The notes below the pieces were generated by a model that was given only the letters and a program-made list of their open reading frames with translations, had not been told where the DNA came from and did no database searches. Below are positions 17,301 to 42,933 of a DNA stretch of 58,652 nucleotides, piece by piece. Each line of letters begins with the position of its first letter. Position 1 is the stretch's first letter. A program made the position numbers and the translations under genes. Source of the DNA: an uncultured Mediterraneibacter sp. (GTDB lineage: Bacteria; Bacillota; Clostridia; Lachnospirales; Lachnospiraceae); contig NZ_CAKRGI010000014.1 in NCBI RefSeq assembly GCF_934330165.1, positions 1 to 58,652 on the forward strand, read 5' to 3'.

Positions 17301-17357
17301 ATCCATTACTTTTCGGTACAATCAATTACTCGTGATCTGGAATGTACATTCCCCGCA

Positions 17358-17560
17358 CCAGCGACCGGCAGGTTTCCTGACTTACAAATCTTATGCCCGA
17401 ACGCCTTCCCGGTCTCCCAGTGGCTGCGTCTTCACGCCTGCCGGTCACATTTGCTTACAGTGACGAGTTCGTGCAGGAATTGCACCTGCTTCCCTTTTAC
17501 CTGTTGCTATATCTTCCTATTTAAAATATAAACAGAATTTCTATATAGAACAGCACCGAA
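17358..17560 (-). ncRNA. Cobalamin riboswitch
   Basis: On the minus strand the hallmark blocks appear in order: GGTGCTGTT, GGGAAGCAGGTG, TTCCTGCACGAAC, GTCACTGTAA, GCCACTGGGAGACCGGGAAG, and the B12 box AGTCAGGAAACCTGCC (17367-17382). This is a complete canonical aptamer. It precedes the 1414-residue surface protein and the btuFCD-like genes, so corrinoid would repress the whole five-gene unit. Confidence 0.95.
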
Positions 17561-23853: not shown

Positions 23854-24141
23854 AAAAAAGTCCCTTTTCAGAAATCAATCTGAAAAGGGACGAATATAAT
23901 CCGCGTTACCACCCTGATTCCGCAAAAAAACTGCGGCTCTTCACATACCAGCATATGCTATCCATATAACGGTGGAGACCGGCGAGGTTTACTGACGTGC
24001 ATCACGCTTTCAGCCCGCTTCTTAGAGAGGATATCCTTATCCGGTTATTACCTGCTCACACCACCCACAGGCTCTCTGAAAATAATCTCGAATATGACTT
24101 TGTTCTCATCAACGAATTTGGTGAACAATATTTTCTTTACG
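23854..24141 (-). ncRNA. T-box leader upstream of the BASS transporter
   Basis: On the minus strand the T-box sequence AGGGTGGTAACGCGG lies at 23901-23915. It is followed by a terminator (GTCCCTTTTCAGA paired with TCTGAAAAGGGAC) and TTTTTT. The 5' part shows AGAGAG and CTCTCT strands of Stem I, with a GTGTGAGCAGG distal hairpin. The specifier is ambiguous: ATC (Ile) immediately before the CTCTCT strand is my best reading, GAT (Asp) the alternative. Confidence 0.92.
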
Positions 24142-40167: not shown

Positions 40168-40921
40168 AAATTTGTATTTGCTGAAGAGGAAATGTTCTGG
40201 CATCAAGAAGGATTTTGACAGAAGAGTGTTCATATCCGTACTTGTTGTTGCATCGCAGTGCAGGACCCGCTTTACCTCAGCCCGTTGACAACTTGTAACA
40301 GAAACGTGGAAATGCTCGTGCAAAGGCACTCGCATTTACGTTCCTTAACAAGTTGGGCAAAGTGTCTTCGGAACGCTCCCTGTCAATGCACTGCTCACGC
40401 AACAGCAAGGGCGGATATTGGGCTTTTCAAGTCAGAAAGCGTTTCTCTCACCGGAACATTTTCTTCCAACAAACACGAAATTTCAATAAGAAATAAAGAG
40501 CCGGATGGCTATCGACTAAGATCAATAATCTGTAAGATGTAGTATTTGATATTTACTGTCTGACACTTACCATCTTAGTCGATAACCTTCCGGCTTTTCT
40601 TGTCATTTTCAAATTTGCATTGTTGAGTGAATACGCTGTGAAGCCAGTGTAACTTCTTATTGAGGTGACCAGCGGAAAGCAGGGGGGTTCCTGAGCAGGT
40701 GCATTAACGTAGAGCGTTCCGAAGACACTTTGCAGCGTTTGTTAGAGAAAGTAAATGGGAGTGCCTCTGCACGAGCATTTCCACTTTCGAGTTACAAACG
40801 GTCAACAGGCTGAGGTAAAGCGAGCCTGCACCGCAAAGGAATATCCCTGCTTTCCGCGTCCGCTCTGCCACATAGAAGTTTTCTACTTTCCAGGCGTATA
40901 ATCCAGACAATTACAAATTTT
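40168..40921. repeat. Giant palindromic repeat unit A
   Basis: About 750 bp whose two halves are imperfect inverted repeats. Examples are AGTGTCTTCGGAACGCTC in the left arm and its exact complement in the right arm, and the central stem 40500-40522 / 40572-40594. The ends match TTTGTATTTG on the left and CAAATT-type sequence on the right. A direct, closely similar copy is unit B (42204-42933). Small open frames on both strands are shadows of the palindrome and have no coding character. I do not recognise it as a known insertion sequence. Confidence 0.85.
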
Positions 40922-41210
40922 ATACTTATTTCATACAATTTTTAAACTCTCTTCATTGCTTTTCCTCTTACACTATCTTATACTCTTCTCACATCAAAAG
41001 CTCAGACAGATTCTATTTCCATTTTCTATGTCTGATGTCCAGTATGCAGGAAAGCCTAGGGGAAAAATTTTAACCCCCCTTTTAAGAAGTCTTTTAAAAT
41101 TTTATTCTTAGGACTCTGCTATGGACGCATCTCATATTTCAGGACCATTTCGGTCAGAGATTTTCATTTTGATGATAACGATTATATTTTTTATTAGGGA
41201 GGACTTGCCT
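40922..41210. other. Leader region of rpn
   Basis: AT-rich spacer between unit A and the rpn gene. A CCCCCCTTTTAAG stretch lies near 41080. I could not assign a confident promoter. The rpn ribosome binding site GGGAGG is at its right end. Confidence 0.4.
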
Positions 41211-42203
41211 ATGGGACAAGCAGATGTAAATGTTAATCTTTGGCTTAAGGATACGAAACGGTTCGCAGACCTGTTCAATGCCATTTTATTTCATGGAGAA
41301 ACCGTGATCCTGCCGGAGAATCTTCACCCCAGCCCGGAGACAGCCGCAGTCAGTCTTCAGGACGCCCAGGGGAAAAATGTCGTAAAAAAGCAGTACCGTG
41401 ATATCATCATGAACTGGCAGGATCAGGCTGTCCTGATGTTGCTGGCAGTAGAATCCCAGACTGCGGTCCATTACGCTGCACCGTTAAAAGTCATGCTCTA
41501 TGACAGTATGGAATACGCAGAACAGGTACGGGTCAAATGGAAAGAACATCCACCCCGTCTTTCTTCGGCTGAATTTCTTTCCCGGTTTCAAAAGAATGAT
41601 AAACTCATCCCGGTGATTACTTTGGTCTTCTATTATGGGACAGAGGAATGGGATGGACCGCTGGAGCTGCATCAGATGTTTGATCTTGGTACAGAAAAAA
41701 GCCACGCAGAATTACTGAAAAAATACCTTCCAAATTATCATATTAATCTGGTGGATGTCAGAAGACTGGAGAATTTAGAATCTTTTCAAAGTGATTTACA
41801 AATTGTCTTTGGTATGCTACAATGTAGTCAGGATAAATACGCAATGCGTACATACATAGCAAACCATAAAGAGTATTTTCAAAAGCTGGATCTAGAGACT
41901 TATCATGCACTTGGTGCATTTTTAAATTTCCGGCAGCTGATGGAGATAAACGTAAAACAGAAAGAAAGGGAGGAACTGGATATGTGTAAAGCACTGGAAG
42001 ATATTTATAACGATGGCGTTCAGGCTGGTATAGAAGCGGGGATAAAACAGGGCAGGGAATCGGGGATCGCTCAGGGAGAAGAAGCCCATAAGAAAGATGT
42101 TGCCTTTCAGATGCAAAAGCTTGGTTATCCTTTGGAGGCAATTGCGGCAGTACTGAGAGAAACGGTTGAAGGCATCAGCAAGATACTGGCTGTAGTTAGA
42201 TAA
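41211..42203 (+). CDS. Rpn family PD-(D/E)XK nuclease / putative transposase bracketed by palindromic repeats
   Basis: 330 residues from ATG at 41211, selected for the GGGAGG before it; an in-frame extension to 41121 has none. NVNLWLKDTKRFADLFNAILFHG near the start, then KKQYRDIIMNWQDQAVLMLLAVESQT (D...E-x-Q nuclease core) and PVITLVFYYGTEEWDGPLELHQMF, are typical of Rpn/transposase_31-like proteins. The C-terminus has Gly-rich repeats (AGIEAGIKQGRESGIAQGEE), as in many members. The stop codon is fused to the left end of repeat unit B. Known Rpn proteins cut DNA and stimulate recombination; action on the flanking palindromes is a hypothesis. Confidence 0.85.
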   Translation: MGQADVNVNLWLKDTKRFADLFNAILFHGETVILPENLHPSPETAAVSLQDAQGKNVVKKQYRDIIMNWQDQAVLMLLAVESQTAVHYAAPLKVMLYDSMEYAEQVRVKWKEHPPRLSSAEFLSRFQKNDKLIPVITLVFYYGTEEWDGPLELHQMFDLGTEKSHAELLKKYLPNYHINLVDVRRLENLESFQSDLQIVFGMLQCSQDKYAMRTYIANHKEYFQKLDLETYHALGAFLNFRQLMEINVKQKEREELDMCKALEDIYNDGVQAGIEAGIKQGRESGIAQGEEAHKKDVAFQMQKLGYPLEAIAAVLRETVEGISKILAVVR

Positions 42204-42933
42204 CTTTGTATTTGTTGAGGGGGAAATATCCCGGCAGCAGGAAGGGGCTTGACAGAAGAACGTTCATATCCGCCCATGTTGTTGCATCGCAGTGCAGGCC
42301 CCGCTTTACCTCAGCCCGTTGACAACTTGTAACAGTGCAGTGGAAACAGTCGTGCAGAGGCACTCCTGTTTACTCCCCTTAACAAGTTGGGCAAAGTGTC
42401 TTCGGAACGCTCTCTGTCAATGCACTGCTCACGCAACAGCAAGGGCGGATATTGGGCTTTTCAAGTCAGAAAGCATTCCTCGCACCGGAACATTTTCTCC
42501 CAACAAACACAAAATTCCAATAAGAAATAAAGAGCCGGATGGCTATCAACTAAGATATCAGATACTGCAGTTTGCAGATTGTTTATCCTGGTCAATAGCC
42601 ATTCGGCTTCTTTCTACCGTTTTTAAATTTGCATTGTTGAGTGAATACGCTGTGGAGCCAGTGTGACTTCTTATTGAGATGGTCAGCGGAAAGCAGGGGT
42701 GTTCCTGAGCAGGTGCATTAGCGTAGAGCGTTCCGAAGACACTTTGCAACGTTTGTTAGAGAAAGTAAATGGGAGTGCCTCTGCACGAGCATTTCCACTT
42801 TCGAGTTACAAACGGTCAACGGGCTGAGGTAAAGCGGGCCTGCACTGCGAGGGAATATCCCTGCTTTCCGCGTCCGATCCGCCACATAGAAGTTTTCTGC
42901 TTTACAGGCGTATCACCACAACAAATACAAATT
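42204..42933. repeat. Giant palindromic repeat unit B
   Basis: About 730 bp, a second copy of unit A in the same orientation. It shares long identical blocks (for example ACGCAACAGCAAGGGCGGAT and GAGCGTTCCGAAGACACT) and the same internal inverted symmetry. Its central stem differs from A (GCCGGATGGCTAT / ATAGCCATTCGGC), but pairing is preserved. It starts right at the rpn stop and ends at the -35 box of the NYN gene promoter. Open frames within it are non-coding shadows. Confidence 0.85.

Follow-up and report, generated by a model that had tools for sequence, protein, structure and literature searches.

Repeated sequences in bacteria usually sit loosely between genes. MITEs and foldback elements are non-coding and multi-copy, with long inverted ends between which genes may be carried. 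The REPINs of the REPIN/RAYT system are pairs of inverted repeats able to form hairpins, dispersed between genes and non-autonomous (PMC3116915), and the REPs themselves measure 20-40 bp (PMC3733652). Inverted repeats are also enriched just downstream of stop codons, and in E. coli most of these are parts of terminators (PMC6060812). Rpn proteins are described as toxin/antitoxin-like defence nucleases whose genes are reported to hitchhike with mobile elements (PMC10327210), and as low-specificity DNA endonucleases of the PD-(D/E)XK type (PMC5350276, PMC10327210).

The locus described here shares features with each of these systems. It lies in a window of 58,652 nucleotides (the whole stretch of DNA analysed, from an uncultured Mediterraneibacter sp.), in which two units, A and B, flank an rpn gene. 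Each unit consists of two inverted hairpin arms of about 313 nt, with a common conserved core, around a two-sided terminator-like stem. The arms were delimited by blastn within the arm family and scored with a covariance model, R1. Unit A runs from a left arm (40170..40483, plus strand, core 40244-40406, 148.6 bits) through a centre with a putative terminator-like stem and A/T runs on both sides (40484..40606, placed by its inverted repeat and by comparison of centres) to an inverted right arm (40607..40919, minus strand, core 40684-40845, 134.9 bits). A stretch upstream of rpn follows (40920..41210, plus strand), whose element-adjacent start recurs upstream of the rpn copies of G001, the nearest genome compared, as seen by flank comparison and blast. 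The rpn gene itself (41211..42203, plus strand), which we read as cargo, encodes a Transposase_31/YhgA-like nuclease with six homologues in G001. Its match to PF04754 (E 1.4e-08, 35 bits against a cut-off of 21) was obtained on the longer ORF 41121-42203, and the start at 41211 was chosen by comparison with that ORF opening at 41121. Unit B comprises a left arm (42204..42516, plus strand, core 42278-42440, 140.3 bits), a centre with a putative terminator-like stem (42517..42620, from folding of both halves of B) and an inverted right arm (42621..42933, minus strand, core 42698-42859, 140.3 bits).

An earlier note on this DNA had described A and B as direct copies of one another, and their identity is 86%. 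As it had also stated, the left-arm block AGTGTCTTCGGAACGCTC is exactly complementary to a right-arm block within its own unit in both A and B, and each unit has a further central stem. In A this stem is a 45-nt pair that is 80% complementary, and the centre of B also folds as a stem. The note's account of rpn holds too, in that no other long gene lies between the two units and the rpn TAA finishes at 42203, immediately ahead of B (gap 0). Its description of the units as large palindromes needs amending, because the halves are indeed inverted but do not form one palindrome; they are two rod-like hairpins facing each other with a stem between them. The folding that it had suggested gave -164.9 and -149.3 kcal/mol for the two halves of B, each including the central stem (z -8.3 and -7.4 against shuffles, with 0 of 100 shuffles as stable for each half). 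The central stems of the window were absent from the output of a simple terminator scan. A stem and a T run are visible in many centres of the wider family when these are compared, termination activity being assumed from sequence. Rfam searches gave the element no match at the gathering score and only sub-threshold miRNA-type matches. Elsewhere in the window, Rfam places a SAM riboswitch (292-394), a cobalamin riboswitch (17350-17519) and a T-box leader (23883-24121), all on the minus strand.

The family to which A and B belong, one of paired hairpin elements placed with unusual exactness, is apparently undescribed. We call it so because it has no Rfam match and because no such element appeared in the mainly open literature searched, the unnamed motifs of PMC8040213 aside. 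The genome of G001 (one contig, 2.73 Mb) holds 31 two-arm copies and several partial ones, one of the two-arm copies (in L081) spanning an rpn copy, and R1, which was built from 51 arm cores, finds 66 arms in it. Arms fall into two subtypes, left (L) and right (R), with one of each per two-arm copy. Across the genus, R1 matches occur in 44 of 58 genomes, the number of arms varying widely from 0 to 66. Outside the genus they are rare, with 6 of 397 genomes (four genera) in a search of the family and 6 of 392 (two genera) in a search of the order, both of which scored 7 candidates per genome, so that weak or few copies may escape. A pattern scan returned at least 120 stretches, and most of the 80 loci listed are titled Mediterraneibacter, the others standing under older or provisional names. 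The arms of G005 are about 65% identical to those of the window. Among 33 centres (31 from G001 and two from the window), 20 measure 91-136 nt and contain a terminator-like stem, the remainder being shorter, or having up to about 200 nt extra, or reaching about 1.6 kb. Two long centres in G001 hold nested DDE_3/HTH transposase genes (L083 4912-6183 and L087 4684-5874, both minus strand), which we take to be of the IS630 type. Gene-free stretches of roughly 120-240 nt, related to these transposase stretches, occupy the centres of several other elements.

Some copies in G037 and G003 had looked single-armed, but a second, diverged rod appeared in all four stretches folded. A viral or plasmid origin was considered and set aside, with 0 exact pattern matches among viral_contigs and no blastn match against plasmids. 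The four matches in a phage collection are to faecal scaffolds, unverified and 4.3-5.8 kb long, each of which stops within an arm ('Bacteriophage sp.' MT838801.1, MT839318.1, MT839411.1 and MT838007.1). Three of their ORF sets look bacterial by eye and the fourth scaffold has no ORF of 120 aa; apparently all four are bacterial chromosome.

Set against the described systems, these elements have the paired inverted repeats, dispersal between genes and non-autonomy of REPINs. They differ in that their arms of about 313 nt far exceed the REPs and are not short palindromes, in that no HUH (Y1) tyrosine transposase was recognised among the ORFs near the elements looked at, and in their placement at stop codons, where REPINs are loosely extragenic. 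With MITEs and foldback transposons they share a non-coding, multi-copy nature, terminal inverted repeats and the carriage of genes between long inverted ends. Here, however, the inverted ends are long hairpins in their own right and the element fills gaps from stop to stop. Nor was a parent transposase recognised near the elements looked at, the only transposases seen there being the nested DDE_3 ones with their own ends. The target duplications raised in the earlier note did not appear either: none was seen to differ from site to site, and the AATT that the ends carry is invariant and equal to permuted pairs, a fixed AATT target being indistinguishable from an element end. Insertion into an existing hairpin was rejected as well, flank complementarity being equal to permutation (706 of 2000 reach the observed value). 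By eye, one element, in L072, sits inside a flanking inverted repeat. The hairpins resemble intrinsic terminators in lying just downstream of stops, but are built of two conserved 313-nt arms plus a centre and occur as many similar copies in one genome, rather than as short unrelated stems. The gene flanked by A and B belongs to the same toxin/defence nuclease type as the mobile rpn genes described before (PMC10327210, PMC5350276). According to PMC10327210, rpn has no flanking terminal repeats, whereas all seven copies examined here are bracketed.

What was not expected of the family is where it sits. An arm's outermost AATT[T/C]G frequently abuts the stop codon of the gene running into that arm. 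Counting ORFs of 80 aa or more in G001, a facing stop lies at -1..+3 nt for 34 of 66 arm ends (random points, 99 of 20,000) and at -12..+30 for 46 of 66 (random points, 872 of 20,000). The 31 two-arm elements of this genome abut a stop (-3..+5) at both ends in 10 cases, at one end in 11 and at neither in 10. In the window one arm end of four does so, where the rpn stop meets B, and no ORF of at least 80 aa runs up to the element at the other three. At named loci from other species, a same-strand stop lies 17-94 nt before the core in 75 of 86 arms, against a stop within 200 nt for 747 of 3,000 random points; this count entered 89 of 106 matches, omitting weak or cut ones, and dropped 3 near a locus edge, its species and some of its loci are non-independent, and a small number of its lowest values are due to ORFs entering the arm. 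Sixty of the distances from core to stop fall into two tight groups, with 20 arms at 34-44 nt and 40 at 70-86 nt, fitting two basal stem lengths.

Flanking genes are convergent at 21 of the 33 two-arm elements of G001 and the window. Measured with simple ORF calling, the non-element sequence between the stops and the element comes to -1..+5 nt in 10 of these 21 pairs, while the remaining 11 have 11-441 nt left over, some with extra ORFs or partial elements; in 28 convergent pairs without an element the gap ranges from -115 to 1134 nt, with a median of 97. Where convergent genes do have an element between them, it often stands in place of the entire gap. Such exactness at stops is unexplained by ordinary transposition plus selection.

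One convergent pair that is occupied in G001, where the gap is 760 nt, was compared in 20 other species. For both genes the alignment reaches the final C-terminal residue of the query in each of the 21 species, gene 1 of G028 being five residues longer. The shortest gaps are -26 nt (G028), 8 nt (G076) and 12 nt (G010). Gaps of 38-157 nt with simple hairpins, by eye, occur in G033, G025, G035, G014, G082, G018 and G074, and other palindromes seem by eye to extend from stop to stop in G005 (193 nt, L191) and G077 (201 nt, L201); the gap in G006 is 219 nt. An R1 arm is present in gaps of 422 nt (G067) and 504 nt (G016), and the gap of 1303 nt in G037 has an R1 match of 15.8 bits only. R1 gave no match in the long gaps of G022 (765 nt), G031 (752), G068 (347) and G011 (349). 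The comparison therefore indicates that the element leaves the genes untruncated, that the site is variable and that a close fit to stops is not peculiar to this family. A second empty-site comparison, at L096 (4073-4946, in G001), found no intact pair in the species listed, because the two genes of this element are not adjacent there; they are found on other contigs or with about 15 kb between them, and the L096 element thus marks a rearrangement junction.

The same gene ends bear arms in different species. The 121 arm-touching genes include 21 homologous groups with arms in at least two species, and G001 is represented in seven of these groups. The number is inflated by sister species, and a few of the groups depend on short or paralogous ORFs. 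Similarity between orthologous arms does not exceed that between other arms, at 0.76-0.90 (four pairs entered for two species) compared with a median of 0.79 and a maximum of 0.99 for non-orthologous arms, and at 0.69-0.78 in seven orthologous comparisons with G001 against means of 0.71-0.76. The exception is a locus where a gene of about 1420 aa faces one of 81 aa, at which arms are more similar among some species. Species-specific arms at shared gene ends point to gene conversion or to repeated insertion at the same ends. A dedicated mechanism, if there were one, would also leave arms at the same gene ends across species, each with the species' own sequence. That Mediterraneibacter has a mechanism which (re)installs paired giant hairpins exactly between convergent stops, choosing its sites by gene 3' ends and keeping the copies alike, seems to us improbable.

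The contents between arms or elements differ, and include rpn, an Rce1-like protease, ParE/RelB, DUF2000 and a DDE transposase. At a locus where an acyltransferase gene faces a sodium:alanine symporter gene, the arms flank different genes in three species. G008 has an Rce1-like protein there, whose 19.8 bits fall slightly short of the Pfam cut-off (22.4); G064 has a ParE/RelB pair together with DUF2000, and G080 has DUF2000 followed in the list by an Rce1-like protein. At L084, left of the element at G001 781240, 22 nt resembling the end of rpn lie between the stop of a 342-aa gene and the element, as if a transferred stretch had overrun the element end.

The reading we favour, and to which we give roughly even odds, is that of a mobile, cargo-carrying, foldback/MITE-like family that is alike within each genome and acts as a two-sided 3'-end structure. 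The element would spread like a long-terminal-repeat MITE or foldback transposon moved by some other factor, and recombination or repeated spread would keep the copies within one genome alike. Established copies would then form the 3' end of the genes they touch, with the transcript running from the stop through the rod hairpin to the terminator-like stem on both sides, and rpn would be cargo, a toxin/defence-type gene carried between two elements. This reading is favoured by the many two-arm copies in G001, each with one arm of either subtype, by the placement at stops and in convergent gaps, by the different genes between the arms of the acyltransferase-symporter locus in three species, by the bracketing of all six G001 rpn copies and by the species-specific arms at shared gene ends. 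It is weakened in that neither a transposase belonging to the element nor a varying target duplication was found, and by the unexplained exactness at stops. Its stop-placement part is weakened because 10 of 31 two-arm elements in G001 and three of four window ends abut no stop, and its terminator part because the simple scan missed stems whose activity we assume. It is also conceivable, if on balance unlikely, that these are vertically inherited 3'-end structures rather than transposons, namely convergent-gene terminators that grew into palindromes and were homogenised by gene conversion, spacers having been lost by deletion and rearrangements via the repeats having brought new neighbours. The small hairpins at or near the stop of the compared pair in several element-free species (by eye) are consistent with such a history, as are the 21 homologous groups whose orthologous arms are no more alike and the L096 element joining genes that are non-adjacent in the species listed. 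Deletion should, however, leave varied remnants, yet exact junctions dominate near stops and recur in G005, and the wide range in copy number between species also argues against vertical descent.

Two further explanations concern the nuclease and the transcript. The earlier note had proposed a mobile or domesticated system in which Rpn acts on hairpin DNA, and a dispersed family with a repeated element-rpn-element composite is indeed present. All six rpn homologues in G001 have element sequence on both sides (both intact in three, one or both truncated in three), making seven of seven copies looked at, with that of the window, bracketed by one element family, and Rpn is a DNA nuclease of a suitable type (PMC5350276, PMC10327210). 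Copies are nonetheless found genome-wide and mostly unlinked to rpn, with most G001 elements not adjoining one, while the sites do vary between species. A protein search found no rpn in the arm-bearing genomes G037 (30 arms), G016 (23), G027 (15) and G003 (9). The sole match in G005 (35 arms) is a broken fragment lying 2.4 kb away from the arm concerned, and in G034, G067, G006 and G021 rpn is on arm-free contigs or at least 33 kb from the nearest arm, G006 and G067 being highly fragmented, so that arm neighbours on other contigs are possible. Across these nine arm-bearing genomes, no intact rpn was seen next to an arm. The RAYT-like role is not supported, and we consider it very unlikely that the hairpins are recognised or cut by Rpn and mobilised by it in the way that RAYT mobilises REPINs. 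A functional structured RNA, either a sense 3' UTR or one reading outward from the centre, with the hairpin DNA merely its gene, is in our view improbable. Two-sided changes are seen in 30 of 40 predicted pairs across 51 cores of several species, with 35 invariant columns, and tandem G.A pairs are possible on the outward strand (by eye). A first count of strands favoured the outward one (A.C 66 against G.U 20), and before composition control the outward fold was lower in 36 of 36 R arms, 18 of 33 L arms and 40 of 44 others. Control for composition leaves a weak fold difference (Stouffer z -2.2, with 13 of 24 below zero), a second alignment fitted to the sense model brings A.C and G.U near parity, and copies within G001 have no strand preference (GT 19 and 26, AC 22 and 24 column-events), so that the outward preference was dropped. 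A promoter search of the centres gave nothing convincing. Template switching can yield compensatory pairs and keep palindromes paired (PMC8794818), and for this reason covariation is weaker functional evidence here than usual. In G001 and the window, one-sided column-events outnumber compensated pairs by 62 to 4 in R arms and by 72 to 12 in L arms. The suggestion in the earlier note that paired central stems reflect selection for structure therefore calls for caution: the stems exist in both units, but template switching offers an alternative and one-sided changes predominate.

With a large element that meets stops to the base, takes the place of convergent gaps, allows its contents to change and returns at the same gene ends in several species, location at 3' ends would be a trait under selection or targeting. 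Such a family would lend itself to the study of how repeats reach the ends of genes, of the insulation of convergent transcription in gut Firmicutes and of the ferrying of toxin/defence-type genes such as rpn. Unit B itself has left a trace in G001, where the last ~20 nt of its right end lie beside the same PIN-gene flank (L076, around 2442060-2442110), which dates the B site to before G001 and the lineage of the window separated. The element at L076 is interrupted by other sequence, and the rest of a right arm lies 16 kb off, in L075 around 2426390-2426430.
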